Assembly: GCF_900112685.1 (NCBI RefSeq) | Contig: NZ_FOMS01000002.1 | Span: forward strand, 310,001-374,000 | DNA from: Roseivivax sediminis | Lineage (GTDB): Bacteria > Pseudomonadota > Alphaproteobacteria > Rhodobacterales > Rhodobacteraceae | Direction of reading: 5' to 3' | DNA: 64,000 nucleotides | Shown: in pieces, positions 21,086 to 39,177 of the stretch | Layout: each line of letters opens with the position of its first letter | Position numbering within the stretch: the stretch's first letter is position 1 | Notes under the pieces: model-generated | What the model was told of the DNA's origin: nothing | The model's input: only the letters and a program-made list of their open reading frames with translations | Database searches by the model: none | Position numbers and translations under genes: made by a program

Positions 21086-21101
21086 CGAGGCCGCGCGGCG
21101 A

Positions 21102-21977
21102 TCAGACCCGGGCGGCGGTGCCGGCCTGCGTCGGGACGAGCCGCGCTGCCTGCATGCGCACCATATGCGCCAACGCCCCCTCCCCGGGACAGGAGGGGAT
21201 CGACGAGATCGCCCCCGACAGGATGTCGTTCAGCCGCGCGATGGCCCCCTCGCGCCCGAGCCGCGCCACGGCGTTCGGCCTGCCATGGGCGGCGTCCTGC
21301 CCGATGGGTTTGCCGGTCTCGGCCTCGCTCTCGCAGGCGTCGCGCAGATCGTCGGCGACCTGGAACGCCTCCCCGATGCGGGCGCCGAGTTCGGTCCAAG
21401 GCTCCGGGTCCTGCCCGGCGGCAACCGCGCCCATCTGCGTCGCCGCGACGAAAAGCGCGCCGGTCTTGGCGCGGTGATAGGCCGACAGGTCGATCCTCTC
21501 CTCGCTTTCCCAGCCCTGACCGGCGCAGATGCCGCCCGGCATCCCGGTCTGCCGGGCCAGGATCTCGATCAGCGCGACTGCGCGCGTCGGGTCCTGCGGC
21601 GCCGCCCGGGCAAGCGTCTCGAAGGCGATCACGATGAGCGAATCGCCGGTCAGCACCGCCACCGGCTGCGAAAAGGCGCAATGAACGGAGGGTTTGCCGC
21701 GGCGCGTGGCGGCATCGTCGAAACAGGGCAGGTCGTCGTGAACAAGACTGGCGCAGTGAATGAATTCCAGCGCGGCCGCCGCGGCATCGGTGAGGGGCGG
21801 GCGGTCCTCGCCGCAGGCCTCCGCCACCGCCGACAGGATCGTCGGCCGGATCCGTGCGCCCCCCGGCAGGCAGGCATAGGAGAGTGCGGCCGAGAGCTGC
21901 CCCGGCGCCGTCGCCCCGCCACGCGCCCGGGCGAGGGCTTCGCTGATCGCGGCTTCGATGCGGTGGGCGTCGGGCAT
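21102..21977 (-). CDS. crtE: Geranylgeranyl diphosphate synthase, CrtE type
   Basis: It extends prenyl diphosphates to C20 geranylgeranyl diphosphate, the precursor of carotenoids and of the bacteriochlorophyll tail. The 291-residue protein matches Rhodobacter CrtE along its length as I recall it, including CASLVHDDLPCFD, GGICAGQGWESE, AYHRAKTGALFVAATQMGA and SIPSCPGEGALAHMV. The first Asp-rich site is DDLPCFD and the second DDLRD. I chose the ATG at 21977, which follows AGGGAGAC and aligns with the CrtE start. No other crt gene is near. A housekeeping farnesyl diphosphate synthase (IspA) is the alternative, but IspA usually sits beside dxs or xseB, which are absent here. Confidence 0.85.
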   Translation of the reverse strand: MPDAHRIEAAISEALARARGGATAPGQLSAALSYACLPGGARIRPTILSAVAEACGEDRPPLTDAAAAALEFIHCASLVHDDLPCFDDAATRRGKPSVHCAFSQPVAVLTGDSLIVIAFETLARAAPQDPTRAVALIEILARQTGMPGGICAGQGWESEERIDLSAYHRAKTGALFVAATQMGAVAAGQDPEPWTELGARIGEAFQVADDLRDACESEAETGKPIGQDAAHGRPNAVARLGREGAIARLNDILSGAISSIPSCPGEGALAHMVRMQAARLVPTQAGTAARV

Positions 21978-22305
21978 CTCGGGTCTCCCTGCGACCGCGG
22001 ACTGGATCGGCGCCATTGAAAAAGGACGCCGCGCTCGAAATCCGGGGCCGGACACGTGCCGGGGCCTGACAATAAGGCCATCTTACCCGATCCCCCGAAT
22101 CGGCCCCACCCTAGGTGGAGACGCGGTCAGCGTCATCGCCCGTGCCGGATGTCGGGCGCCGAGTGCGACACTGTGGGCGCAACATCGGGTAAGGGCGGTC
22201 TCGCGCCCGCGGCAGCCGAACCGAAAACGGGCCGGGCGACGCGCGCCCGACCCGTAGGGGTAAGGTCCCGATTGCTACGCGCGCCATCGGCGGCGCGCGG
22301 CCCGA
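21978..22305. other. 328-bp noncoding gap between crtE and the ectoine aminotransferase
   Basis: I see no gene here. It holds the crtE promoter region, a perfect 10-bp inverted repeat with widely spaced arms (CTTACCCGAT at 22082–22091 and ATCGGGTAAG at 22184–22193), and a small palindrome CCACC-CTA-GGTGG near 22107–22119. No exact TGT-N12-ACA PpsR site was found by eye. Confidence 0.5.
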
Positions 22306-23682
22306 TCAGGTCCAGTCGAAGAGCTTCTTGGCCGCCTTCGCGGTCTTCTCGGCGATCTCGTCGGCCTCTGCTTCGGTCAGGCAGAACGGCGGCGCGAAGC
22401 CGAGGATGTCGCCCTGCGGCATGGCCCGGGTGATGATCCCGTCCTCGAGCATCGTCCCCGCGAGGAGCGCGCCGATCTTGTCGGATGCCTCGAAGAAGGT
22501 GCGCGAATCGCGGTCCTTCACGAATTCCACCGCGCAGAGCATGCCTTCGCCGCGCACCTCGCCCACATGGGGGTGGTCGGCCAGCGCCTCGGACATGACC
22601 TTGTTGAAGTACGCGCCGGTCTTGCCCGCGTTGGTCACGAGGTCGAGCGTGTCGATCAGCTTGAGGTTGGCAACGCCCGCCGCCGCGCCGATCGGGTGGG
22701 CCGAGTAGGTCCAGCCGTGGCCGATCGGGCCGTTCTCGTCGGTGCCCTGCTCCAGCACCTTCCACATCTTGTCGGACACGATGGAGCCCGAGAGCGGCGC
22801 ATAGGCCGACGTCAGGCCCTTGGCGATGGTCATCAGGTCCGGCTTGATGCCGTAATGGTCCGACCCGAACATCGAGCCGAGCCGCCCGAAGCCGGTCACC
22901 ACCTCGTCGGCGATCAGCAGGATGTCGTACTTGTCGAGCACCGCCTGGATCGCCTCCCAGTAGCCGGCCGGCGGCGGCACGATGCCGCCCGTGCCGAGCA
23001 CCGGCTCACCGATGAAGGCGGCGATGGTGTCGGGGCCTTCCGCCTCGATCAGCTTTTCCAGCTCGGCCGCGCAATGCTGGCTGAACTGCTCCTCGGTCAT
23101 CGAGGAATCTTCACGGCGGAAGTAATACGGCGCCTCGGTGTGGATCACCTGGTTCAGCGGCAGGTCGAACTTCTGGTGGAACAGGTGCAGCCCGGTGAGC
23201 GAGCCGGTCATCAGGCCCGAGCCGTGATATCCGCGCCAGCGCGAGATGATCTTCTTCTTCTCGGGCCGGCCGAGGATGTTGTTGTAGTACCAGACCAGCT
23301 TGATGTTGGTCTCGTTCGCGTCCGAGCCGGACATGCCGAAATAGACCTTCGACATGTGATCCGGCGCGCGATCGAGGATCATCTTGGAAAGCGTGATCGA
23401 CGCTTCGGTGCCGTGGCCGACATAGGCGTGGTAATAGGCCAGTTCGTGCGCCTGCTCCGCGATCGCCTCGGCGATCTCGGTGCGGCCGTAGCCGACGTTC
23501 ACGCAATAGAGCCCGGCGAAGGCGTCAAGAAGCTTCTGGCCGTCCCGCGTCTCGATGTGGCTGTCCTTGCCGCCCTGGATCACGCGCTGGGGCGCGTTGC
23601 CGCGGGCGAATTCCGCCAGGTGGGTCGAGGGGTGGAAGAAATTCTCCCGATCCCATTGTTCGAGCATGTCGTTCTTGAGCAT
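22306..23682 (-). CDS. Class III aminotransferase of the ectoine block (Atf/DoeD-like diaminobutyrate transaminase)
   Basis: The 458-residue PLP enzyme has the class III features D259 in ILLIADEVVTGFGR and PLP lysine K288 in MTIAKGLTSAYAPLSG. On its own it looks like a GABA/putrescine–pyruvate aminotransferase. It is the last gene of the run eutB-eutC-asnC-ssd-atf, whose order matches the Ruegeria pomeroyi ectoine operon. There Atf converts 2,4-diaminobutyrate to aspartate-4-semialdehyde, so that substrate is the best guess. It starts 118 nt after the dehydrogenase gene. A GABA- or polyamine-specific role remains possible. Confidence 0.82.
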   Translation of the reverse strand: MLKNDMLEQWDRENFFHPSTHLAEFARGNAPQRVIQGGKDSHIETRDGQKLLDAFAGLYCVNVGYGRTEIAEAIAEQAHELAYYHAYVGHGTEASITLSKMILDRAPDHMSKVYFGMSGSDANETNIKLVWYYNNILGRPEKKKIISRWRGYHGSGLMTGSLTGLHLFHQKFDLPLNQVIHTEAPYYFRREDSSMTEEQFSQHCAAELEKLIEAEGPDTIAAFIGEPVLGTGGIVPPPAGYWEAIQAVLDKYDILLIADEVVTGFGRLGSMFGSDHYGIKPDLMTIAKGLTSAYAPLSGSIVSDKMWKVLEQGTDENGPIGHGWTYSAHPIGAAAGVANLKLIDTLDLVTNAGKTGAYFNKVMSEALADHPHVGEVRGEGMLCAVEFVKDRDSRTFFEASDKIGALLAGTMLEDGIITRAMPQGDILGFAPPFCLTEAEADEIAEKTAKAAKKLFDWT

Positions 23683-23800
23683 CGTCGCGGTCCTTGACTG
23701 TTCAATCCCGGCGCGGCCTGAGGGGCGTCTTTGCCGAGGGGTGATGTCGGTCCGGGCCGTGCGGGACGGCCCGGTCTAATCGTAAAAGACGGAGGGCGGT

Positions 23801-25285
23801 TCAGGCCCAATCGCGGCAGACGTACTTGATCTCGGTAAAGGCTTCGAGACCCTGACGCGCCCCTTCGCGGCCGAGGCCGGACTGTTTCATGCCGCCGAAC
23901 GGGATCGGCGCGCCGGTCACCTTGGTGCGGTTCACCGCGACCATGCCGAAATGCAGCCCGCGAGAGACGCGGTAGATCCGCCGCGGATCGTGGCTGTGCA
24001 CATAGGCGACAAGCCCGTATTCGGTGTCGTTGGCCCGCGCCACGACCTCTTCCTCGGTGTCGAAGGGTACCAGCGCTGCGACGGGCCCGAAGGTCTCCTC
24101 GTGCAGGATCAGCGCCTCTTCGGGCACGTCGGCCAGCACGGTCGGCTCGTAGAACAGATTTCCGGCGCTGTGGCGCTGACCGCCGCAGAGCAGCCGTGCG
24201 CCCTTGTCCAGCGCGTCCTTGACGTGCTCTTCCTGCTTGGCCACGGCCTTTTCGTTCATCAGCGGGCCGATGTCGGGATCGTCCATGCCGACACCGACGC
24301 TCAGCGCCTGGGTCGCCTCGGTGAACTTCTCGACGAAGGTGTCGTAGATCGCCCGCTCGATGAAGATGCGGTTCGCGCCGAGGCAATCCTGCCCGGAGGT
24401 GGCGAACTTGGCCTTCATCGTCTCGGTCACCGCCTTCTCGAGATCGGCGCCCTTGAAGACGATGACCGGCGCATGGCCGCCCAGCTCCATGATCAGCGAT
24501 TTCACCGTCCCGGAGCATTGCCGGTACAGCAGCCGGCCGATTTCAGTGGAGCCGGTGAAGGACAGGACGCGCACGCGCGAATCCTGCGTCCAGGGCTCGA
24601 CGATCTCGGACGCCTTGCCGGTGACGACGTTGAACACGCCCGGCGGCAGGCCGGCGCGTTCGGCCAGCTCGGCCAAGGCGAGGGCCGAAAACGGCGTCTC
24701 GCCCGAGGGATGCGCGACGATGGTGCAGCCGGCGGCAAGCGCCGCGGCGGCCTTGCGTGTCAGCATCGCGGCCGGGAAGTTCCACGGCGTGATGAGCGCG
24801 GCGACGCCCATCGGCTCGCGCCAGAGCTCGACCTCCGCGTCGGGCAGGTGCGAGGTCACGCCCTCGATGTTCGGGCGGCGCGTTTCCTCGGCGTAGAATT
24901 CGATAAAGTCGGCGGCGTAGTCGATTTCGCCCCGCGCCTCGGAGATCGGTTTGCCCTGTTCGAGCACCATGATCCGGGCGAGGTCTTCCTTGTGCTCCTT
25001 CATCAGCTCGTACCAGCGGCGCAGCAGGCGCGCGCGCTCCTGCGGCAGGCTTTGCGACCAGCTCTGGAAGGCGGTGTCGGCGGCATCGACGGCGGCGCGA
25101 GCCTCGTCGCCCGAAAGCTGCGCGACCTCGCCCAGCCAGGTGCCGTCGGCGGGATTGGACACGGCGAAGGCGGCGCCGGATTCGGCACTCTGCCACTTGC
25201 CGCCGATATAGGAAAAGTTGCGGACAAGGCGCGGATCGGCCAGGTCCGACAGCGGCGATTTGGGGAAGGTGCGATGCACGGTCAT
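23801..25285 (-). CDS. NAD(P)-dependent aldehyde dehydrogenase of the ectoine block (Ssd/DoeC-like)
   Basis: The 494-residue protein is of the succinate-semialdehyde dehydrogenase class: N169 in LITPWNFP, E267 in LIMELGGH and catalytic C301 in SGQDCLGANR. In ectoine catabolism it would oxidise aspartate semialdehyde to aspartate. The usual lysine of the nucleotide-binding KPSExTP motif is replaced: residues 191–197 read AHPSGET, with His at 192. The ATG at 25285 follows a strong AGGAGGAT. It lies between the AsnC regulator and the aminotransferase. A plain GABA-pathway SSADH is the alternative. Confidence 0.85.
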   Translation of the reverse strand: MTVHRTFPKSPLSDLADPRLVRNFSYIGGKWQSAESGAAFAVSNPADGTWLGEVAQLSGDEARAAVDAADTAFQSWSQSLPQERARLLRRWYELMKEHKEDLARIMVLEQGKPISEARGEIDYAADFIEFYAEETRRPNIEGVTSHLPDAEVELWREPMGVAALITPWNFPAAMLTRKAAAALAAGCTIVAHPSGETPFSALALAELAERAGLPPGVFNVVTGKASEIVEPWTQDSRVRVLSFTGSTEIGRLLYRQCSGTVKSLIMELGGHAPVIVFKGADLEKAVTETMKAKFATSGQDCLGANRIFIERAIYDTFVEKFTEATQALSVGVGMDDPDIGPLMNEKAVAKQEEHVKDALDKGARLLCGGQRHSAGNLFYEPTVLADVPEEALILHEETFGPVAALVPFDTEEEVVARANDTEYGLVAYVHSHDPRRIYRVSRGLHFGMVAVNRTKVTGAPIPFGGMKQSGLGREGARQGLEAFTEIKYVCRDWA

Positions 25286-25412
25286 GCCATCCTCCTGAAG
25301 GGGTATGGCAGGAATATGGGCTGCGCCCGCCAGAGGAAGGGACCAAACATCCGCGCCGGGGCAGAGGATTCCTCTGCCTGAGGGCATAAAGCCAGACCGA
25401 ACCGCCTGCGCG

Positions 25413-25895
25413 TCAGTCCGGGGCGGCGAGCAGCCCCAGCGGCGGACCGGCCGAGGTTTTCACCGATTTCGTCACGATATAGGTGTAGTACCGCGCCAGC
25501 CCGATCCGCGACTCCAGAAGGTGGTCGATCAGCCGCTGGTAGGCGTCGATATCGCGCGCCACCACCTGCATGAGGTAGTCGAACCCGCCGCCGAGCGCCC
25601 AGACCCAGGTGATTTCCTCGTGCCTCTGCACGGCCTCTTCGAAGATGCGGAATTCCGGCGCCTTGTGGCTGTCGAGCTCCACCGCCACGAACACCGTCAC
25701 GTGCGGGCCGAACGCCTTCAGCGACAGCCGCGCGCCGTAGCCCTCGATGATGCCGGCGCGTTCGAGCTTCTTCAGGCGTTCCCAGCAGGGGGTCGGCGAC
25801 AGGCCCACGCGCTCGGCCAGTTCGGTCTTGGTGATCCGGCCCTCGCGGGTGAGCGTGCGCAGGATGTCGAGGTCGCGCGCATCGAGGCGGACCAT
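25413..25895 (-). CDS. asnC: Lrp/AsnC-family regulator of the ectoine block
   Basis: The 160-residue protein has an N-terminal helix-turn-helix (about residues 5–50, ITKTELAERVGLSPTPCWERLKKLE split across the recognition helix) and a C-terminal RAM ligand-binding domain. In Ruegeria pomeroyi the AsnC protein at this position activates the ectoine genes in response to pathway intermediates such as 2,4-diaminobutyrate. It starts 3 nt after eutC, so it is made with the enzymes it probably controls. Ligand and role here are inferred from that precedent. Confidence 0.85.
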   Translation of the reverse strand: MVRLDARDLDILRTLTREGRITKTELAERVGLSPTPCWERLKKLERAGIIEGYGARLSLKAFGPHVTVFVAVELDSHKAPEFRIFEEAVQRHEEITWVWALGGGFDYLMQVVARDIDAYQRLIDHLLESRIGLARYYTYIVTKSVKTSAGPPLGLLAAPD

Positions 25896-25898
25896 GCG

Positions 25899-26885
25899 TC
25901 AGCGCGCCCGGATCGGCGTGCCCGCCGCGCCCAGCCGCGTCGCCACGTGGCTGGCGATGGCGGTGTCCTGCGCGCCGGTGCCGGTCAGATCGGCGATGGT
26001 GATATCGCCCGGCGCCTGGCGGCCGGGCCGCGCGCCGGTGACGATCTGGCCCAGCTCGGCCGGATCCTCGGGCGCGGTGCCGGCGGCGCGGGCGGCGCGC
26101 AGCTCTCCCATCTTCTCGGCCTGCGAGACGCGGTCGCAGACATAGAGGTCGGCGCGCGTCAGGCAGGCCGCCTCCAGCTCCTGCTTGCCTTCCTGGTCCG
26201 ATCCCATCGCGGTGACGTGCAGTTCGGGGTGCAGCCAGTCGGCTTTCAGCACCGGGTCGGTCGCCGGCGTCGTGGTGACGACAAGCTGGGACCGGCGCAC
26301 GAGCGTCTCGGCGTCGGTGCAGACCTCCGCCTGGACCCCGAGCGCGGCCTTGAGGTCGGCGGCACATTCCGTGGCGCGCTGCGCGTCGCGGCCCCAGACA
26401 AGCACCCGCTCGAACGGCCGCACGAGGTGGACGGCGCGCATCTGCAGCCGGGCCTGCACGCCAGTGCCGATGACGCCGGCGGTGGTCACGTCCTCAGGGG
26501 CAAGGTGGCGCGCGGCCACGGCGCCCGCCGCCGCGGTGCGGATGTCGGTGAGATAGCCGTTGTCGAGGAACACTGCCTGCACCAGCCCGGTCCTGGCCGA
26601 AAACAGGATCATCAGCCCGTTGAGCGACGGCAGCCCCAGCTTGGGATTGTCGAAAAAGCCGGGCGAGACCTTGACCGCGAAGCCGTCGAAGCCGGGGATG
26701 TACGCGGTCTTCACGTCGACCTCGCCGTTGGCCTCGTGCAGCGCCATCGACATGACGGGCGGCATCACCACCTCGCCGCCGGCGAGCGCGGCGAAGGCGG
26801 CCTCGATCACGTCGACCGTTTCGACATCGAGCGCGACGACCTCGCGCAGCTCGGCCTCGGTCACGATGCGGATGTCATGGCTCAT
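25899..26885 (-). CDS. eutC: Ectoine utilisation protein EutC (ornithine cyclodeaminase fold)
   Basis: The 328-residue protein belongs to the ornithine cyclodeaminase/mu-crystallin family, with a Rossmann motif GVIGTGVQARLQMRAV and a substrate-side segment VKVSPGFFDNPKLGLPSLNG. EutC members sit beside EutB in hydroxyectoine operons and are thought to help convert a hydroxyectoine-derived intermediate into the ectoine route; the chemistry is not fully settled. It overlaps eutB by 11 nt. EutA, the usual third partner, is not in the window. Without the context it would be called an ornithine cyclodeaminase. Confidence 0.85.
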   Translation of the reverse strand: MSHDIRIVTEAELREVVALDVETVDVIEAAFAALAGGEVVMPPVMSMALHEANGEVDVKTAYIPGFDGFAVKVSPGFFDNPKLGLPSLNGLMILFSARTGLVQAVFLDNGYLTDIRTAAAGAVAARHLAPEDVTTAGVIGTGVQARLQMRAVHLVRPFERVLVWGRDAQRATECAADLKAALGVQAEVCTDAETLVRRSQLVVTTTPATDPVLKADWLHPELHVTAMGSDQEGKQELEAACLTRADLYVCDRVSQAEKMGELRAARAAGTAPEDPAELGQIVTGARPGRQAPGDITIADLTGTGAQDTAIASHVATRLGAAGTPIRAR

Positions 26886-27879
26886 AGGGGCGCCCTTCGA
26901 TCGTCATGTCGCCAAGCGTCACGTCGCGGCCCGTCACGACGCGGGTGAAGACCTCCATGTCGAGGTTGCGGCCCGTCAGGATCGTCGCGGTCGGCCCGGT
27001 CAGCGTGACTTTGCCCGTCTGTACTGCGGCGAGCCCGACGACGCAGGCGCCCTCCGCGATCAGCCGATCCTCGTAATAAAGGGTCTGGAGCGCGCGGTAG
27101 ACTTCTTCCTCGCTCACCAGCACGACCTCGTCGAGAAGATCGCGGCACATCGCGAAGGTCAGCTCGTTGTCGAGCCCGATGCCGCCGCCGAGGCTGTCGG
27201 CGAGGCTCTCGACCTCTTCCACCTCCACCGGGCGGCCCGCCTCGAGGCTCGCGGCCATCGCCGCGCCGCGATCCATCGACACGCCGACGAGGCGGATGGA
27301 CGGATTGATCGCCTTGGCCGCCGCGGCGACCCCGGCGGCGAGCCCGCCGCCCGAGAGCGGCACCAGCAACATGTCGAGGTCCGGCTGTTTCGCCAGCATC
27401 TCAAGCCCGATCGTGCCCTGCCCGGCGATCACGTGGGCGTCGTCGAAGGGCGATATCTGCGCAAGGCCCTGTTCCTCGGACAGCCGCTGGCTTTCGGCCA
27501 GCGCGGTGTCCTGCGACCGGCCGCGGATATGGACGTCGGCGCCGAAGGCGCGGATGCCGTCGACCTTGGTCTTGGGCACCAGTTCGGACATGCACACCAC
27601 CGCGCGCAGGCCCCGTTCGCGCGCCGCGAAGGCGACGCCGCGCCCGTGGTTCCCGGTCGAGCAGCAGGTCACGCCGCTGATGCCCTCGGGCAGCTTGGCG
27701 ACGGCGTTGAGCGCGCCGCGCAGCTTGAACGCGCCGATCGGCTGCGTCATCTCGAGCTTGAGCCAGAAGGGCTGGCCGTAGCGCGTCTCCATGTGCGGAG
27801 AGGGCACCATCGGCGTGGCATCGGCGCGCCCGCGCAGGACGGCGGCGGCAGAGAGGATATCGGCAAGAGTCACGGTCAT
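26875..27879 (-). CDS. eutB: Hydroxyectoine utilisation dehydratase EutB
   Basis: The 334-residue fold-type II PLP enzyme resembles threonine dehydratase without a regulatory domain. The PLP lysine is K52 in PIGAFKLRGALNAV, and the phosphate loop is LSGGGLAAGV. The pairing with eutC and the downstream asnC-ssd-atf genes identify it as EutB, proposed to remove the hydroxyl group as water during hydroxyectoine breakdown. The ATG at 27879 was chosen because the longer frame adds unmatched sequence overlapping idi. It begins 79 nt after the idi stop, with no clear terminator between. Confidence 0.86.
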   Translation of the reverse strand: MTVTLADILSAAAVLRGRADATPMVPSPHMETRYGQPFWLKLEMTQPIGAFKLRGALNAVAKLPEGISGVTCCSTGNHGRGVAFAARERGLRAVVCMSELVPKTKVDGIRAFGADVHIRGRSQDTALAESQRLSEEQGLAQISPFDDAHVIAGQGTIGLEMLAKQPDLDMLLVPLSGGGLAAGVAAAAKAINPSIRLVGVSMDRGAAMAASLEAGRPVEVEEVESLADSLGGGIGLDNELTFAMCRDLLDEVVLVSEEEVYRALQTLYYEDRLIAEGACVVGLAAVQTGKVTLTGPTATILTGRNLDMEVFTRVVTGRDVTLGDMTIEGRPYEP

Positions 27880-27958
27880 CGCCCCGACTATGGCCACGCA
27901 AGCGGCGAAATGAAACCCGGGCCTTTCGGAGTGGTGCGGTGAAGCGGCGCCGCGTAGC

Positions 27959-28519
27959 TCAGTCTTCTGAGGCGTTCGAGAAGATGCGGCGGGCGTGCTC
28001 ATCTAGGTAGATGCGCAGCCACGGCGTGTAGCGTTCCGGGCGGGCGGCGACGTCCTTCGTGAGCGCGTCGAGCGGCATCCATGCGGTCTCCATCACCTCG
28101 GCGGGATTGGGCGTGACGGGCAGCGCTGCGGGGGCCTCGGCGGTGAACAGGTCGACGACCTCGTGTTCGATGAGGCCACCGCCGACATCGGCGCGGTATT
28201 CGATCACGTCGCGGTGGGCGAGGGGCAGACCGGTCAGGCCGAGTTCCTCGAAGAGGCGGCGGTGCGCACAGGCCTCCGGCGCCTCGTCCCAGTGGGGATG
28301 GGTGCAGCAGGTATTCGCCCAGAGACCCGGCGTGTGGTATTTCGTGGCCGCGCGGCGCTGCAGAAGCACCGAGGCTCCGGAGAGCACGAAGACCGAAACG
28401 GCCTTGTGGCGCAGACCTTTGCGGTGCGCCTCCAGCTTTTCGACCGGGGTCAGGTGGCCGTCGACCCAGGCGGGGACGGTCAGCGGAGTCTCGGGCGCCG
28501 TGGCGCGCGGTCGTGTCAT
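27959..28519 (-). CDS. idi: Isopentenyl-diphosphate delta-isomerase, type 1
   Basis: It interconverts IPP and DMAPP, the C5 isoprenoid units. The 186-residue Nudix-fold protein has the catalytic-cysteine motif NTCCTHPHW (C72 by alignment to E. coli C67) and a metal-binding acidic run RRLFEELG. In Rhodobacter species idi is the last gene of ppsR-bchG-orf428-bchP-idi in the photosynthesis gene cluster. Here it still follows the pucC-like gene and ppsR on the same strand, but bchP and bchG are missing. The ATG at 28519 matches the length of Rhodobacter Idi (about 176 residues). Confidence 0.93.
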   Translation of the reverse strand: MTRPRATAPETPLTVPAWVDGHLTPVEKLEAHRKGLRHKAVSVFVLSGASVLLQRRAATKYHTPGLWANTCCTHPHWDEAPEACAHRRLFEELGLTGLPLAHRDVIEYRADVGGGLIEHEVVDLFTAEAPAALPVTPNPAEVMETAWMPLDALTKDVAARPERYTPWLRIYLDEHARRIFSNASED

Positions 28520-28690
28520 GGCAGCCTCGAAGGTCGGGCGGTGTCGTATGTCCGGAGGGTCATAGGGCCTTCGCGATGCGGTGAGAACCCGCAACACCGA
28601 CTTGTGCGCGGGCGCTGATCCGGCGCCGCACCGTACCTTCCGTGCGATCGCGTGCGAAACCGTCCGTCGCCCGAACGAAAGCGAACGGGC

Positions 28691-29971
28691 TCATTCCCCT
28701 GCTTGCAGTCGGGCGGCGGGGTTGCGCCCCTCCATCACGAGAAGCGCCAGGATCGCGGCGGCGACGAAGAGGCCCGCTTCCACGGTAAAGACGGCGGCAA
28801 AGGCCGGGGCGTCCGCCGTCAGCCCGCGCATCAGGTCGACCGCCGCGGCCCCGGCGAACCCGCCCGATCCCGCGGCGATGGCCTGCGCCGCGCCCCACAG
28901 ACCCATGCGCGTGCCCTCGCGCTGGCCGCGCCCTTCGCCGGCGAGCTTCATCATCGCACCGATGGCGGCGACCGCGAACATGCCGTTGAAATAGCCGAGC
29001 GCGATGGCCGCCGGCAGCAGCGGCGCGCCCGGTCCGGCCGGCGCGATGCCGGCAATCGTCAGGAGCGCGGCGGCCGATCCGAGGCAGCCCGCCGCGACCC
29101 AGGCCCGGAGCGAGCCGAGCCCGAAGCCGGTCGCGGCGATGCCGACGGTGAGCATGCCGACGAAGACGCCACCGTTCTGCGCCCCGGCAAGCTGCGTCGA
29201 CTGGCCCGGCGTGTAGCCGAAGACGAGTCCGGCATAGGGTTCGAGGATGAGTTCCTGCATGAAATAGGCGATCATCGACAGGAAGACGAAGACGGTGAAG
29301 TTGCGCGCCCGCCGTTCTCGCCAGACCTCGGCCAGAGCGACACGGAACGGCGGCGCCCGGGGGTCCTGCCGGGCGATCAGCCCACGCTCGATGCCGTATA
29401 CGGCGAGGACGGTGAGCGCCAGCATCGCCGCCGCGGTGGCGGCTACGATGACCAGAAGCCGCGCCGGCGAATATGGGTCGAGCAGCCCGCCGATCACGCC
29501 GGCAGTCACCGCGATGCCGAGGATCATCATCAGCCAGGTGATCGTGGCCGCGGCGGCGCGGCGGTGCGGCTCGGTGGCGGTGGCCAGAAGCGCCAGCAGC
29601 GAGGTGCCCGAGGCGCCAGTGCCGATGCCGATCAGCGCGTAGGACAGGATCGACACCGCGAGACCGGGCCAGAACGCGGACGCCAGCAGCACCACGCCGA
29701 GCGCCGCACCGATTCCGCCGAGCGCCAGCACGGCCATGCCGCCGACGATCCAGAACGTGCGGTTGCCGGCGGTGTCGGAACGGAAGCCCCAGCGCGGCCG
29801 GGTGATCTGGATACCGTAGTAGAGCGCCACGAGGAGGCCCGGCAGGGTTGCCGGGAGCGCCAGCTCGACCACCATCAGCCGGTTCAGCGTGGAGGTCGTC
29901 AGCACCACGATCGCACCGAGCGCCATCTGTACGAGGCCGAGCCGGAAGATCGAGAGCCAGCCGAGCGTCAT
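28691..29971 (-). CDS. PucC/LhaA-family (BCD) major facilitator protein, Orf428-like
   Basis: The 426-residue protein has about twelve membrane helices and the family marks RPRWGFRSDT near the second helix and RMGLWGAAQAIAAGSGG near the eleventh. This family (PucC, LhaA, Orf428) handles bacteriochlorophyll delivery or light-harvesting assembly in purple bacteria. Its place, 42 nt after ppsR and before idi, corresponds to Orf428 in Rhodobacter, where bchG precedes it and bchP follows. Those two chlorophyll-tail genes are absent here; only 171 bp separate it from idi. If the organism makes no bacteriochlorophyll, its present role is unclear. Confidence 0.88.
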   Translation of the reverse strand: MTLGWLSIFRLGLVQMALGAIVVLTTSTLNRLMVVELALPATLPGLLVALYYGIQITRPRWGFRSDTAGNRTFWIVGGMAVLALGGIGAALGVVLLASAFWPGLAVSILSYALIGIGTGASGTSLLALLATATEPHRRAAAATITWLMMILGIAVTAGVIGGLLDPYSPARLLVIVAATAAAMLALTVLAVYGIERGLIARQDPRAPPFRVALAEVWRERRARNFTVFVFLSMIAYFMQELILEPYAGLVFGYTPGQSTQLAGAQNGGVFVGMLTVGIAATGFGLGSLRAWVAAGCLGSAAALLTIAGIAPAGPGAPLLPAAIALGYFNGMFAVAAIGAMMKLAGEGRGQREGTRMGLWGAAQAIAAGSGGFAGAAAVDLMRGLTADAPAFAAVFTVEAGLFVAAAILALLVMEGRNPAARLQAGE

Positions 29972-30013
29972 CGCGTGCCCTCGTGCCGGCCGGGCGCCGC
30001 TGCGCGCGCCGGT

Positions 30014-31429
30014 TCAGGTCTCACCGGGGCCCTCGCGGTCCAGCAGGCCGAACTTGCGCAGTTTCACGTAAAGCGACTGGCGCGACAGGCCGAGCATCTC
30101 GGCCGCCGCGACGCGGTTGTTGCGAGTCAGGTGAACGGCGGTCTCGATGCACATCTTCTCGACCGCGTCGGTGGTCTCCGACACGATCTCCTTCAGCGTG
30201 GCGGAGCCGACAAGCGCAATCACCGAGCTTGCGTCCTCTGGCGTGCCGGTCGGTTTGGAACTGCGTACTCCTTCGGCGCGGCTGGCGTCGCGGATGACGA
30301 AGGCGAGCGAAGGGGCGGTGCGGTCGTCGAGGTGGCACACCGACATTTCCACCGCGGTTTCGCCGCCGAGCCGTGTGACGAGCCGGGTGGCATAGAGGCG
30401 CATCTGCCCGAGCCCGCGCGCGTTCTCCACCAGAACCTTCAGGTCGACCTGGCCGCGGCCGAGATAATCCGACAGGCATCGCCCCGCCACGTCCGAGATC
30501 TGCGTGGCCTCGATCAGGTCGAGGAAACTGTCGTTGCAGGTCACGATGGTGCCGTCGAGGCCGGCAAAGAGGATCGCGTCGGTCGAACGGGCGTAGAGGG
30601 CGGAGAGGTCGGCGGCAATGCCGTCCGCGGCGCCGGTGCGGTCGCCCGCCCCCTCGAGCCGGCAGAGGTAATGCCGCGCGCCGGCGGCGCGGAACACCTC
30701 GGCCGAAAGCCGCAGCTCCCGGCCGTCCCGCGCGGTGCTCAGGAGCAGCGGCCCCTCGCCCGCGGCGGCGCGGGCGAGGCGGTCGGAGAAATCCCCGGCC
30801 TCCGTTGCGAAAGCCGAGGCGAGGGGCCGGCCCAGCGATTCGCGCGTGGCGGCCAGCAGCGCGGCGGCAGGGTCGTTGAGGTCGGCGATCCGCCCGTCCG
30901 CGGCGGTCACGAAGACCACGGGCTCCGCGATGCCGCTCAGCAGCACCCGGTAGCGCGTGGCCACGTCGCGTCGCGCCTCGTAGACCTGTTCGAGCGCCAG
31001 TTGCGCCTGCACCAACTGCGTCCGGCATTCGGTGATGGCTCCGAGATCCCGGCCCAGCATGAGAAGCGCGCCGTCGAAACCGTGCGGCACGAAGCTGTAG
31101 CCGACCGGAGCCACCCGTCCGGTCGAGGTGCGGTGGTCGAGCTCCACCGCGCGGCACAGGTCTTCGCCCGCGGCGATCCGCGCGCGGGCGTCGTCGAGCC
31201 TGGCCGCGCTTTCGGGGGTCAGGGCGCCGGTCAGCGGGTGGCCGACAAGGTCCGCGAGCCCGGGATCGGGCAGGCCGGTCCGGCCCGGGACTACCGACAG
31301 AACTCGCCCGTCGGCGGCGATCACCAGCGCCACGTCGCAGGCCGCGCCGACAACCTCGGCGAGATACGCCGGCGGAACCGCCGCGTCGACCGCCTCCGGA
31401 CGGCTGCGGGGGGAGCTGGTCATGGCCAT
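30014..31429 (-). CDS. ppsR: Photosynthesis repressor PpsR/CrtJ
   Basis: PpsR represses bacteriochlorophyll, carotenoid and light-harvesting genes under oxygen. The 471-residue protein has an N-terminal PAS-like region, a coiled Q-linker (about residues 135–155), two further PAS domains (about 160–260 and 275–385) and a C-terminal Fis-type helix-turn-helix (about 425–462, AAAEMLGLSRQSLYVKLRKF). Cys256 and Cys427 fall at the positions of the redox-active C251 and C424 of Rhodobacter sphaeroides PpsR (464 residues). The ATG at 31429 follows GTGAGGAC. It heads the run ppsR–pucC-like–idi. No usual target genes (bch, puf, puc) are in the window. Confidence 0.93.
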   Translation of the reverse strand: MAMTSSPRSRPEAVDAAVPPAYLAEVVGAACDVALVIAADGRVLSVVPGRTGLPDPGLADLVGHPLTGALTPESAARLDDARARIAAGEDLCRAVELDHRTSTGRVAPVGYSFVPHGFDGALLMLGRDLGAITECRTQLVQAQLALEQVYEARRDVATRYRVLLSGIAEPVVFVTAADGRIADLNDPAAALLAATRESLGRPLASAFATEAGDFSDRLARAAAGEGPLLLSTARDGRELRLSAEVFRAAGARHYLCRLEGAGDRTGAADGIAADLSALYARSTDAILFAGLDGTIVTCNDSFLDLIEATQISDVAGRCLSDYLGRGQVDLKVLVENARGLGQMRLYATRLVTRLGGETAVEMSVCHLDDRTAPSLAFVIRDASRAEGVRSSKPTGTPEDASSVIALVGSATLKEIVSETTDAVEKMCIETAVHLTRNNRVAAAEMLGLSRQSLYVKLRKFGLLDREGPGET

Positions 31430-32234
31430 GTCCTCACGTCGGAGCGCACGCCGGCATGCTGCCTCGTGAGCGGCGTGCGCGCAGCGTTTGTCACAAGATT
31501 GGCCCCGGTCAGGGCCCGAACGGCGTCTTCGCGATCGGGCACGAGGCCGCCGGATGCACGGAGGGCGGGGCGGCACGCGTGCTCTGTCACGACCGCAACG
31601 AGCGTGGCGCCGGTTTCGATCCCTTCCGCCCGGGCGCGGCAGACGGGCGCGGGCTCTGCATGCCCCCCGGAACGTGTCAGCGCACGCCGGCTGGCAGCGC
31701 GAACGTAAATCGCCCGGCGGCCCGGCCCGCGGCGTCGTTTCAGCCGAAGCATCGCCGCCGGGCACAGGGGCGCGCGGGTGCGTGGTGGCATCGGATGCTG
31801 CACTTGGCGTTCGCTCCGGTGGGTCGTTCGCGGGGGATGTCACACGTCCTGGTTCCTCGGTCGCCGGGGCCGAGCCGAGGTCAGATGGGTAAATAGTCTC
31901 TCGATGGCGAATTGACACGAGGATAACGTGATCGGGCGGGATCGCGACATCTGCGTGACCTGCGGGCGCGCTGAGATCGGCGGGCGGTGCGTTGCCGCCA
32001 CGCCTCCGGCAGTGTGCCGGGGCGGAACTTTTCGCCAGGGCGGGCTACGGTACCGTCGTTCCGAGGCGGCACGGGGGCGCCTTCGCGGCCGCCATCCCGA
32101 TGGTCGTGGGGGCAGGGCGGCCGGGGGCACGGATCGCCGTTCACGAAATTGTCCGGTATTCCGGACCTTTCATCGCGCAGGGGCGCTGTTATCTCTTGGG
32201 CGTCCGTCCGTTGTTCCCGATCCGAAGGGGTCCG
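31430..32234. other. 805-bp region without a recognisable gene, between ppsR and the cytochrome gene
   Basis: Several frames stay open on both strands but none resembles a known family; their composition is Arg/Pro/Gly rich, as expected for chance frames in GC-rich DNA. The region includes the divergent promoters of ppsR and the cytochrome gene. A perfect palindrome GTCCGG-TATT-CCGGAC lies at 32151–32166, about 70 bp before the cytochrome start. In related phototrophs this neighbourhood can hold ppaA/aerR or bch genes, so it may contain decayed sequence. Confidence 0.5.
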
Positions 32235-32642
32235 ATGATCCGCAAGCTGTCCGTCCTCCTCGCCTGCCTGCTGGCAGGGCCCGCCCCGGCGCAGGACGCC
32301 GCCGCGGGCGCGCGGGCGTTCGCGGCCTGCACCGCCTGCCACGCGGTGATTGCGCCGGACGGGACGGTGTTGCGCGGCGGCGGCCGGGCGGGGCCGAACC
32401 TGTACGGTGCCGCGGGCGCGCTGGCGGGGCGGCAGGCCGGGTTCAATTATTCGCCGTGGCTGCGGCGGCTGGGCGATGCCGGCGTGCACTGGACGCCGGA
32501 CACCTTCGCCGCCTACCTGCGCAACCCGACCGAGTTCACCAAGGCGCAGCTTGGCGAGTCCTCGGCGCGTTCGCGCATGGCGTTCCGCATGGACCGCAGC
32601 GCGGCCGACATTCACGCCTATCTGGCGTCGCTGGAGCGCTAG
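32235..32642 (+). CDS. Class I cytochrome c, cytochrome c2-like
   Basis: The 135-residue protein has a signal peptide (about residues 1–19, cut after PAPA) and one haem site C32-T-A-C35-H36. The middle reads GPNLYGAAG and the C-terminal part has NPTEFTK and SRMAFRMD, where M115 is the probable second haem ligand. These match cytochrome c2, the periplasmic carrier between the bc1 complex and the reaction centre or oxidase, although this protein lacks some loop residues of the Rhodobacter form. Another small soluble c552-type cytochrome is possible. GAAGGGG precedes the ATG at 32235. Confidence 0.82.
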   Translation: MIRKLSVLLACLLAGPAPAQDAAAGARAFAACTACHAVIAPDGTVLRGGGRAGPNLYGAAGALAGRQAGFNYSPWLRRLGDAGVHWTPDTFAAYLRNPTEFTKAQLGESSARSRMAFRMDRSAADIHAYLASLER

Positions 32643-36161: not shown

Positions 36162-36827
36162 TCAGTTCGCGGGCCGGGATCCGGGCAAAGCCGCCTTCAG
36201 GCGGTGGAAGCTCATGGAAATGTGGGCGCGGCGGATCATGCCGACCGCGGTCATGTCGCCGGAGGCGAGCGCGCCAGCGACCTGGCGCATCTCTTCGCGG
36301 AAAGCTTCTATCTCGCGGCCGAGGTCCAGCGCGGAGATGGTCTTGAGCCAGATCCGCGCGGTGCGGAAGTAGAGGCGTTCGGACACCTCGGCCAGTGCCT
36401 CGTTGCCGATCAGCCGCTGGGTGAAATCGAAATAGGCCATGTTGAGCCGGGCGAAGGCGCGCGCGTCGGGCGCCTCCGCCAGCCGCTCGCCCTCGGCCAC
36501 CAGGCCGCGCGCCTCGTCGAGCACCGACTGCGTCACCGGGCGCGGGGTCATCGTACCCGATAGCTGTGCCAGTTCCTCGCGCAGCGCGTAGACCTCCCCG
36601 AGTTCACGCGCGTCGACATCCGTCACCAGCGTGCCGACGCCGTGGCGTGCCTCCACCAGCCCCTCGTCGGCGAGCCGTGCGAGCACGCGGCGGACCGGCG
36701 TGCGCGACACCCCGAATTCGGAGGCGAGCGATTCCTCCCCCAGCTTGGTGCCGGGGGGGTAGTCGAGCAGGCAGATGCGGCCTCGCAGCTCCGAGTAGAG
36801 CCGTTGATGGCGCGCCTCCGCGCTCAT
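36162..36827 (-). CDS. GntR-family regulator, FadR subfamily
   Basis: The 221-residue protein has an N-terminal winged helix (about residues 6–70, ASEFGVSRTPVRRVLARLADEG) and a C-terminal all-helical FCD ligand domain with ALREELAQLSG and later MIRRAHISM. It overlaps the stop of the deacetylase gene by 4 nt (ATGA) and is the third gene of doeA–deacetylase–gntR, so it most likely senses an intermediate of that pathway. It is not of the MocR/EnuR type that usually controls ectoine genes. Two copies of TGTGTACATC upstream of doeA are plausible operators. Confidence 0.87.
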   Translation of the reverse strand: MSAEARHQRLYSELRGRICLLDYPPGTKLGEESLASEFGVSRTPVRRVLARLADEGLVEARHGVGTLVTDVDARELGEVYALREELAQLSGTMTPRPVTQSVLDEARGLVAEGERLAEAPDARAFARLNMAYFDFTQRLIGNEALAEVSERLYFRTARIWLKTISALDLGREIEAFREEMRQVAGALASGDMTAVGMIRRAHISMSFHRLKAALPGSRPAN

Positions 36828-37978
36828 GCGGCGAGCGTGCGCCGCAGGCCTTCGAGCATCGTCAGGCATTCGGTCAGCTGCTGGCGCGAGACGTATTCGT
36901 CGGGCTTGTGGGCCTGCGCGATTGAGCCGGGGCCGCACACTACCACGGACATGCCAAGCTCCTGGAAGAGCCCGGCCTCCGTGCCGAAGGGCACGACGTC
37001 GGCGGAATTGCCGCCGGTGAGCTGGGCGACGAGGCTGCGCGCCATGTTGTCGTCCATCGGCTCCAGCCCCACGACCTCTCCGATCGTCTCCACGCTGATG
37101 TCGGCCCACGGGGTGACGGCGCGCATCGCCGGCAGAAGCTCCGTCTCGATCAGCTGGGTGAGTTGCTCCTTGACGAACTCCGCGTCGCCGTATTGCACCG
37201 GGCGCATTTCCCATTCGACCTCGGCGCGGCCGGGGATGACGTTGTGCGCCACGCCGCCGGCGAGCTTGCCGATGTTCACCGTGGTCCACGGCGGATCGAA
37301 GCGGCTGTCGCGCGGGGCGCGCAGCTTCAGTTCCTCCGCCAGTTCCATCAGGCGGGAGACGTAGCGCACCGCGTAGGCCACCGCGTTCACCCCGCGGTCG
37401 GGGTTCGAGCCGTGACCTTCGAGCCCCTGGAACCGGGCGGTGTATTCGCAGCAGCCCTTGTGCCCCTCGATGATCCGCATCTCGGTCGGCTCGCCGACGA
37501 CGGCGATGGCCGGCAGGTGGTCGCGTCCCTTGAGGTGCTGAACGAGGTTCTGCGCGCCGAGGCAGCCGACCTCCTCGTCATGGGTGAAGCAGAAATGCAC
37601 CGGGCGGCGCAGGTTCGTGGTCCCGTAGGCGCTGGCCATGGCGATCGACGCGGCGATGAACCCCTTCATGTCGCAGGTGCCGCGCCCCATCAGCAGATCG
37701 CCCCGTTCGGTCATCTGCCAGGGGTCGGTGGACCAGTCCTGGTCGGCCACCGGCACCACGTCGGAATGCCCCGACAGCATCACGCCGCCGCCCATGTCCG
37801 GGCCGATGGAGGCCCAGAGGTTCGCCTTGTCGCCGGTCTCGTCCCGGAACACCTCCACCCGCGCGCCGGCATCCTCGAGCCGGGTCGCCATCGCGTCGAT
37901 CAGCCCGGCATTGGGGTCCGACGACACGGTGGGATGCGCGATCAGGTCGGCCAGGATCTCTTCGGTGCGGTCGAGCAT
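36824..37978 (-). CDS. M20 (ArgE/DapE-type) deacetylase of the ectoine locus, DoeB2-like
   Basis: The 384-residue metallopeptidase-family protein has metal ligands H71 (SGHSDVVPV), D103 (GRGTCDMKG) and the E135–E136 pair (THDEEVGC). It resembles acetylornithine deacetylase. Directly after doeA (2-nt gap), its likely substrate is N-acetyl-2,4-diaminobutyrate, giving 2,4-diaminobutyrate and acetate. The classic EutE/DoeB is of a different (AstE-like) family; an M20 enzyme doing this job has been named DoeB2. A true acetylornithine deacetylase is the alternative, but context argues against it. Confidence 0.83.
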   Translation of the reverse strand: MLDRTEEILADLIAHPTVSSDPNAGLIDAMATRLEDAGARVEVFRDETGDKANLWASIGPDMGGGVMLSGHSDVVPVADQDWSTDPWQMTERGDLLMGRGTCDMKGFIAASIAMASAYGTTNLRRPVHFCFTHDEEVGCLGAQNLVQHLKGRDHLPAIAVVGEPTEMRIIEGHKGCCEYTARFQGLEGHGSNPDRGVNAVAYAVRYVSRLMELAEELKLRAPRDSRFDPPWTTVNIGKLAGGVAHNVIPGRAEVEWEMRPVQYGDAEFVKEQLTQLIETELLPAMRAVTPWADISVETIGEVVGLEPMDDNMARSLVAQLTGGNSADVVPFGTEAGLFQELGMSVVVCGPGSIAQAHKPDEYVSRQQLTECLTMLEGLRRTLAA

Positions 37979-37980
37979 CG

Positions 37981-39177
37981 TCAGTCCTTCACGTACATCT
38001 TGCGGGGGCGGTGGCAGAACGTCTCGGCCGGGCCGTCGTCCTTGATGAGGATGGATTCGGTGATCTCCAGTCCCCAGTCGGACATCCACAGGCCCGGCAT
38101 GAAGTGGAAGGTCATGCCCGGTTCGAGCACGGTTTCGTCCTCCGCGCGGAGGGAGATCGTGCGCTCGCCCCAGTCGGGCGGGTAGCTGAGGCCGATCGGG
38201 TAGCCGCAGCGCGCCCCGCGTTCGATGCCCGCCGATTCCAGCGGCGCGGCGAGCGCGTTGGCGATGTCACAGGCGCGGTTGCCGGCGCGCGCGACCTCGA
38301 GCCCGGCTTCCAGCCCCTCGACCAGCGCGGCTTCGGCCCGCTTGAAGATGTCCGACGGCTCCCCGAGGAAGATCGTGCGGCAGAACGGCGCGTGGTAGCG
38401 GCGGTAGCAGCCGGAGATCTCGAAGAACGTCGCCTCGCCCGGATTGAACGGCTCGCCGTCCCAGGTCAGGTGCGGCGCGGCGGCGTCCGAGCCCGAGGGC
38501 AGCAGCGGCACGATCGCGGCATAGTCGCCCCAGTGGCCGTCCGCGCCCATGATCGCGTCGCGCTGGCATTCGGCCACGACCTCGTTCTTGGGCACGCCGG
38601 GTTCGACACGTTCCACCAGCCCGTCGATCATCTTCTCGGAGATCTTCGCGGCGCGGCGCATGAAGGTCAGCTCTTCCTCCGACTTCACGGCGCGCTGCCA
38701 GTTCACCAGCGCGGTGGCGTCGAGCAGCGTGGAATTCGGCAACTCGCCCGATAGCGCCATGTATGCGCGAGCGGAGAAATAATAGTTGTCGAGTTCCACC
38801 CCGATGCGCGTGCGTTCCAGCCCCATGCCGATGAGGCGCTGGGCCAGATCCTCCATCGGGTGACGTTCGGTCGACTGCACGTAGTTGTCGGCGTAGCCGA
38901 TGACACGGTCGTCGCCCATCCAGACGGTGCGGATGGCGCCGTTGGCATCCTGGTTGCGGCCCCACCAGATCGGATCGGCGTCAGGCAGCACGATCACGCC
39001 CTGATGCACGTAGAAGGACCAGCCGTCATACCCGGTCAGCCACGCCATGTTCGACGGATCGGTGACGTAAAGCACGTCGAGACCGGATCGCTCCATCGCG
39101 CGGCGGGTCTTGTCGAGGCGGCGAGTATACTCTTCCTCGGAAAACGGCAGGTCCTTGGTGAAGCGATGATACGCCAT
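37981..39177 (-). CDS. doeA: Ectoine hydrolase DoeA/EutD (M24 fold)
   Basis: It opens the ectoine ring to N-acetyl-2,4-diaminobutyrate. The 398-residue protein has the pita-bread M24 fold but follows the DoeA family pattern closely: SNMAWLTGYDGWSFYVHQ, ERHPMEDLAQRL, DNYYFSARAYM, LVNWQRAVKSEEEL, YPIGLSYPPDWGERT and WGLEITESI. As in DoeA, the metal-binding residues of true aminopeptidases are not evident. I chose the ATG at 39177, where family similarity begins. It is the first gene of doeA–deacetylase–gntR and diverges from an ABC importer. Confidence 0.87.
   Translation of the reverse strand: MAYHRFTKDLPFSEEEYTRRLDKTRRAMERSGLDVLYVTDPSNMAWLTGYDGWSFYVHQGVIVLPDADPIWWGRNQDANGAIRTVWMGDDRVIGYADNYVQSTERHPMEDLAQRLIGMGLERTRIGVELDNYYFSARAYMALSGELPNSTLLDATALVNWQRAVKSEEELTFMRRAAKISEKMIDGLVERVEPGVPKNEVVAECQRDAIMGADGHWGDYAAIVPLLPSGSDAAAPHLTWDGEPFNPGEATFFEISGCYRRYHAPFCRTIFLGEPSDIFKRAEAALVEGLEAGLEVARAGNRACDIANALAAPLESAGIERGARCGYPIGLSYPPDWGERTISLRAEDETVLEPGMTFHFMPGLWMSDWGLEITESILIKDDGPAETFCHRPRKMYVKD

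Follow-up and report, generated by a model that had tools for sequence, protein, structure and literature searches.

Remnant of a photosynthesis gene cluster with an intact ppsR gene in Roseivivax sediminis

The crtE–ppsR locus and its counterparts in phototrophic relatives

The window analyzed here is a stretch of 64,000 nucleotides from contig NZ_FOMS01000002.1 of Roseivivax sediminis. Between positions 21102 and 32642 it carries crtE, the ectoine operon atf-ssd-asnC-eutC-eutB, idi, a pucC/orf428-like gene (orf428), ppsR and a cytochrome c gene (cytc), the last on the plus strand and all others on the minus strand (Table 1). An initial sequence-only reading had taken this locus for a decayed or rearranged photosynthesis gene cluster that lacks bchG and bchP and into which an ectoine operon was placed, or around which the cluster was broken; if reaction-centre genes were absent from the genome, it would record a recent loss of phototrophy. 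Family models and reading frames support the gene content and order given there. The genome (G000; 4.62 Mb, 37 contigs, rated 99.96% complete) was compared with eight other genomes of the genus Roseivivax (G001 to G008) and one of another genus (G009).

No reaction-centre gene was found and the regulator is retained: no match to PF00124 was found in any of the 37 contigs, and the PpsR model matches well above its cut-off. All eight other genomes of the genus have PF00124 matches. In a set of 147 genomes of relatives that includes G000, PF00124 is matched in 44 genomes and the PpsR model exceeds its cut-off in 44; among the latter, only G000 is without a reaction centre.

In G001, G002 and G008 the order is atf-ssd-asnC-eutC-eutB-idi-bchP-orf428-bchG-ppsR-aerR-bchFNBHLM-lhaA-puhABC-acsF-puhE-hemA-cytc. 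The eut operon is in the same place but inverted in G003, and dxs and puf adjoin idi instead of this operon in G004 to G007 and G009. The photosynthesis genes of the same-genus relatives are distributed over one to three pieces. In the window, orf428 is flanked by neither bchG nor bchP, and both genes are present in exactly these places in all nine relatives; since the same genes also neighbour each other there, the arrangement is not due to chance. All of the 80 nearest orf428 loci have bchP and 79 have bchG, the one miss beginning at a contig end. The Roseivivax clusters L080 (R. halodurans), L088 (R. marinus) and L112 (R. halotolerans) share the order of idi, orf428 and ppsR, the first two also have the eut operon next to idi, and all three differ from G000 in possessing bchP, bchG, aerR and bch genes. 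As phototrophic G001, G002 and G008 (and, inverted, G003) combine the eut operon with idi, the position of the ectoine operon next to idi is the ancestral state and older than the loss of the photosynthesis genes.

Table 1. Genes, deletion scars and junctions of the locus in window coordinates.
Feature	Position	Strand	Basis or remark
Junction abc2/crtE	21086..21101		Synteny: relatives have crtF-bchCXYZ-puf-dxs next to crtE, abc2 elsewhere
crtE (GGPP synthase type)	21102..22055	-	PF00348 165 bits; 80% DNA identity to G008 crtE; frame open
Junction crtE/atf, putative inversion breakpoint	22056..22305		G001, G002, G008: atf joined to sequence of window -155 to -175; G003: eutB
atf, class III aminotransferase, ectoine operon	22306..23682	-	PRK07482 832 bits (cut-off 687); 84-92% identity to G001, G002, G003, G008
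ssd, aldehyde dehydrogenase, ectoine operon (putative start)	23801..25294	-	PF00171; best NCBIfam succinate-semialdehyde dehydrogenase, under cut-off
asnC, Lrp/AsnC regulator	25413..25895	-	Domain and family matches
eutC	25899..26885	-	PRK08291 477 bits (cut-off 408); TIGR02992 450 bits, under cut-off 472
eutB (putative start; open frame extends to 28002)	26875..27885	-	TIGR02991 423 bits (cut-off 413)
idi, isopentenyl diphosphate isomerase (start ATG 28519 or GTG 28597)	27959..28597	-	TIGR02150 107.1 bits (cut-off 105.8)
bchP deletion scar	28520..28690		Place of bchP in relatives
orf428/pucC-like MFS protein	28691..29971	-	PF03209 361 bits (cut-off 21); 77-82% identity to G001, G002, G003, G008
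bchG deletion scar, 42 nt exact	29972..30013		Place of bchG in relatives
ppsR, intact, DNA-binding region conserved	30014..31429	-	TIGR02040 360 bits (cut-off 275); alignment
Scar of aerR-bchFNBHLM-lhaA-puhABC-acsF-puhE-hemA deletion	31430..32231		16.5-17.0 kb block in G001 to G008
cytc, cytochrome c gene, hemA end of cluster (putative start)	32232..32642	+	Orthologue adjoins hemA in 8/8 same-genus genomes

Some of these names depend on comparison with relatives. The crtE product has a polyprenyl synthetase domain only, its best NCBIfam match is FPPsyn (178 bits, under the cut-off), and it scores 123 bits against the CrtE model NF045685, whose cut-off is 460. It is 71 to 79% identical to the crtE that stands beside crtF in all eight same-genus genomes and shares only 35 to 37% identity with the IspA-like gene linked to dxs in G002 and G003; the name is therefore based on orthology to the crtF-adjacent gene and not on the model score. 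A role of crtE as a substitute for a lost ispA was rejected, as all 10 genomes searched, including G000, have three PF00348 matches. For idi, a match to PRK03759 (126 bits) lies slightly under the cut-off of 127. PpsR has its PAS domains (PF08448, PF00989, PF13426) and the Fis-type helix-turn-helix domain (HTH; PF02954) intact. The cytochrome gene gives only a weak Cyt550 match (38.9 bits), and no Pfam match in its shortened frame; it was named from its position and from 50 to 64% identity to the hemA-adjacent gene in the eight same-genus genomes.

Past the cytochrome end of the locus, a DoeA/EutD-like gene is found at 37984-39177 (609 bits, just short of the cut-off of 613), at a distance of some 10 kb from eutB, and a similar gene lies past the same end in G002, G003 and G008. 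With this gene on one side and the eut operon on the other, the photosynthesis piece would be enclosed by an ectoine region split in two. The stretch 36827-39177 comprises the DoeA/EutD-like putative ectoine hydrolase gene and an acetylornithine-deacetylase-like gene, which together with eutBC flank the photosynthesis remnant on both sides.

Deletion scars and extent of the gene loss

Synteny with the relatives shows that the cluster is indeed reduced, with bchP, bchG, the aerR-to-hemA block and the crt/puf and bchODI-crtAIB pieces missing. The gap of 42 nt first noted at the place of bchG is exact, and the gap of 171 nt at the place of bchP holds only if idi starts at ATG 28519; with a start at GTG 28597 it is 93 nt. 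The aerR-to-hemA block of about 17 kb is replaced by 802 nt. The spacer at 28520-28690 has no match to the relatives' loci, and the aerR-hemA scar has a single 24-nt match to them (E 0.007, elsewhere in G008) and no TGTN12ACA motif. No convincing remnants of the deleted genes were detected in the scars tested.

crtE is the only survivor found of the crtCDEF-bchCXYZ-puf piece. It stands alone, with abc2 on one side and atf on the other, and its orientation is the one expected if a segment with its ends left of crtE and at atf had been inverted. In the relatives, atf (in G003, eutB) adjoins the stretch that runs from about -155 to 21081 in the window, and another stretch, which ends near window positions -188 to -236, is separated from crtC by about 1.2 kb in G002, G003 and G008 and by about 14 kb in G001. 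These two stretches meet in G000 between facing stop codons at -184 and -164. The arrangement reads as if crtE had reached the eut operon by one inversion together with deletions. At the place of this second piece, crtC-D and crtF-to-dxs are lacking in G000. The third piece, bchO-bchD-bchI-crtA-crtI-crtB, is also gone with tspO left behind, and the matches to tspO and to the former neighbour of bchO are 96 nt apart (G000:C2:26878-27729). The kept set thus consists of idi, orf428, ppsR, cytc, crtE and tspO, and each of these genes has an open frame.

G000 was further searched with three DNA queries from relatives, namely L034 (from inside ppsR to kpsE), L061:1-14000 (pufM to crtC plus flank) and L203:4000-11700 (bchO to tspO). 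These recovered ppsR, cytc, kpsE, crtE, tspO and flanks, as well as a second hemA, many short matches and a 67% match under bchH that was taken as a putative cobaltochelatase. No bch or puh genes were found with these three pieces, which did not include bchG, bchP or pufC; bchE and bchJ were likewise outside the genome-wide search. As a control, the L203 piece matched six of six genomes with a cluster. A strong crtB-type match, present in all nine relatives, is missing from G000, which has only a weaker second SQS_PSY match (60 bits). Scattered over more than 20 places in G000 is a repeat of about 35 to 65 bp (75 to 97% alike; seen through L034:15960-16038 and L061:5852-5920), which also sits between photosynthesis-cluster genes of G002 and G008.

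Branch of the loss, constraint on the kept genes and PpsR in other genera

In a PpsR tree (118 loci tried, 92 rows with more than 350 residues kept), G000 falls inside the Roseivivax sequences in a clade with G002, G003 and G008 that has starred support, although its nearest sister is not firm. G000 groups with G003 and G008 at 80% in a tree of IspA and IspB from the ten genomes and at 73% in a tree of eight window genes. Because all these neighbours have reaction-centre genes, the simplest history places the loss on the G000 lineage's own branch among the genomes compared. The loss of phototrophy considered at the outset is thus supported by the phototrophic relatives; that it was recent is not, as the loss is undated.

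The kept genes were compared between pairs including G000 and pairs among the phototrophic genomes G001, G002, G003 and G008. Protein identities to the four and among the four are 48-55% and 49-58% for ppsR, 77-82% and 77-81% for orf428, and 72-78% and 73-77% for crtE. The mean dN/dS values of G000 pairs and phototroph pairs are 0.50 and 0.47 for ppsR, 0.22 and 0.20 for orf428, 0.24 and 0.23 for crtE, 0.22 and 0.24 for tspO, 0.23 and 0.27 for idi, and 0.38 and 0.38 for cytc. G000 PpsR retains 101 of the 110 columns that are invariant across nine phototrophs (G006 crtE was left out of the invariant-column analysis), and its HTH stretch deviates only at positions that also vary in the relatives. 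These values suggest that constraint on the kept genes continued roughly as in phototrophs, perhaps loosened.

A family survey of 394 genomes from 393 genera, G000 counted, found PpsR (E 1e-40 or better) in 166 genomes, a reaction centre in 165 and both in 161. The four genomes with a reaction centre and no PpsR (G029, G261, G329, G400) are all only 64 to 79% complete. PpsR occurred without a reaction-centre match in G000, G216, G224, G233 and G323; G224 was dropped, since one of its contigs (9.8 kb) bears a normal segment of the cluster and the genome is 89% complete. In G216, G233 and G323, bacteriochlorophyll genes were judged by DNA similarity to one piece and by local neighbourhood. In G323 (99% complete), cytc-aerR-ppsR-idi-tspO is adjoined by the former bchO neighbour. 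G233 (95% complete) retains cytc-aerR-ppsR-idi; tspO, crtI (56% identity) and divergent bchI (49%) and bchD (38%) lie elsewhere in its genome. In G216 (98% complete), the gene after ppsR encodes an Rrf2 regulator, and ccoN and ccoO of a cbb3 oxidase lie farther along. Altogether, ppsR is retained with tspO in three genomes, with a cytochrome c gene in three, with aerR in two and near ccoNO in one. The four genomes belong to four genera and take separate positions in the PpsR tree, which requires four separate changes.

TGTN12ACA boxes are present in aerR/bchF of four of four relatives. Three such boxes lie in the interval from cytc to aerR in G233, and two precede ppsR in G216; none was found at the ppsR locus of G323 or of G000. 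Outside the pieces studied, a strict box (TGTCADN6HTGACA) lies between two genes in G002, G003 and G001 (L192, L195 and L198, near base 1501); one of these genes we take to be carB, and the other is BchJ-like (32-34% identity). The tspO-crtI and divergent bchI-bchD genes of G233 are located at 8490-13355 of L210 (C12), with bchI and bchD below their family cut-offs and with no crtB or crtA within the 20 kb examined around tspO-crtI. The ppsR-cco locus of G216 occupies 7817-13890 of L204 (contig C34), an 18.7-kb contig of 51.5% GC.

Explanations for a retained PpsR

We consider it rather probable (roughly 0.6), from the comparison of sequences, that phototrophy was lost cleanly and that PpsR was kept for another, perhaps respiratory, role. 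The photosynthesis genes would have been deleted on the G000 lineage around idi, orf428, ppsR, cytc, crtE and tspO, and deletions breaking the kept genes may have been selected against, so that these genes would serve purposes other than photosynthesis. For idi, cytc and tspO, these could be isoprenoid supply, respiration and tetrapyrrole handling, and PpsR may be retained to control respiratory or tetrapyrrole genes in response to redox state or haem. As ppsR now lies 42 nt upstream of orf428, a single transcript is predicted to be probable. The company of kept ppsR genes (tspO, cytc, aerR or ccoNO) fits a redox or tetrapyrrole role. PpsR is reportedly haem-sensing, and TspO is said to modulate PpsR/AppA. 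CrtJ of Rhodobacter capsulatus, a member of the same family, is reported in passages of PMC5362033 to activate the cco operon and to repress ubiquinol oxidase, and thus acts on respiratory oxidase genes too; G000 differs from Rhodobacter in that its locus lacks aerR and that the photosynthesis genes, the targets of repression, are gone.

Several observations weigh against such a role. No TGTN12ACA box occurs between 19041 and 35201 of the window, where the photosynthesis promoters themselves are gone, and none was found in eight upstream or intergenic stretches of the kept and eut genes (one box has a spacing of 15). The strict box is absent from the whole G000 genome and present two to five times in each of four relatives, whereas the looser TGTCN10GACA is uninformative, as its 102 occurrences in G000 fall within the range of three relatives (85-126). 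When columns invariant in eight other phototrophs were considered, G000 PpsR retained fewer than the left-out phototroph in eight of nine comparisons and orf428 in seven of nine. Relative-rate counts of G000 against G003 were 63:45, 58:46 and 75:46 for ppsR and 31:26, 36:23 and 32:17 for orf428, one of three being nominally significant in each case; nominal significance was also reached in the control gene cca. Furthermore, aerR is gone from the G000 locus, crtE in the absence of crtB has no evident use and appears unexplained by a retained role, and a recent loss could account for the intact genes, since the loss is undated. bchG, bchP, bchE, bchJ and pufC were found nowhere within the 175 kb of G000 examined, no genome-wide search having been made.

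Since there are no boxes at the G000 locus and no strict box anywhere, the role proposed for PpsR stays conditional, and a serious rival is that after the same clean loss ppsR, orf428 and crtE are functionless leftovers of a recent, unfinished decay, with only idi, cytc and tspO still useful. The missing boxes, the mild signs of relaxation in PpsR and orf428, the crtE without crtB and the undated loss would all agree with such decay. However, the deletions end in short spacers without breaking any kept gene, no pseudogene remnants were found in the scars tested, dN/dS is almost unchanged, and PpsR is likewise found in three other genera that lack a reaction centre; we regard mere leftovers as the less probable reading. 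That the photosynthesis genes moved to a plasmid missing from the assembly and the organism is still phototrophic is very improbable: plasmid-borne clusters are known in Rhodobacterales, but the genome is rated as nearly complete with no reaction-centre match in any contig, and the genes were removed piecewise around kept ones, unlike in a single transfer. Insertion of the ectoine operon into the cluster, as proposed in the sequence-only reading from the crtE-eut-idi order, is refuted by the eut operon beside idi in the cluster-bearing genomes G001, G002 and G008 and retains next to no credibility.

Clean loss with a retained PpsR can be set beside known cases. Citromicrobium JLT1363 is described in passages of PMC3338782 as having lost its photosynthesis gene cluster; like G000, it is a non-phototroph close to phototrophic relatives with conserved flanking genes, but it has a single hypothetical gene in the cluster's place, whereas G000 lost genes around kept ones and the repressor remains. 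In Rhodobacteraceae phototrophy is patchy, loss versus gain is debated, and cluster loss and transfer, with losses part of the accepted picture, are treated in PMC6052148, whose passages mention no kept regulator and contain none of the terms "remnant", "relic", "pseudogen", "partial" or "traces". Non-phototrophic Acetobacteraceae with remnant carotenoids, mentioned in PMC12654162, are similar in that part of the phototrophic equipment outlives photosynthesis; they keep carotenoids, while G000 keeps the regulator and a transport-like gene and has lost crtB. Among the titles and abstract openings listed by searches of an open-access library, none reports that non-phototrophs have kept ppsR.

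In R. sediminis, which belongs to a genus of marine bacteria that use light, the loss can be traced gene by gene against close relatives, together with a list of the genes that remain. A tentative extension is that PpsR with TspO, and sometimes AerR, may form a redox- or tetrapyrrole-sensing module broader than photosynthesis, which would repeatedly outlive phototrophy and steer respiration or haem in heterotrophs via new DNA targets. Four of the genera searched retain the repressor in the absence of its classical targets, which makes the question of its non-photosynthetic job testable, and such genomes are natural photosynthesis-free backgrounds for studying PpsR.

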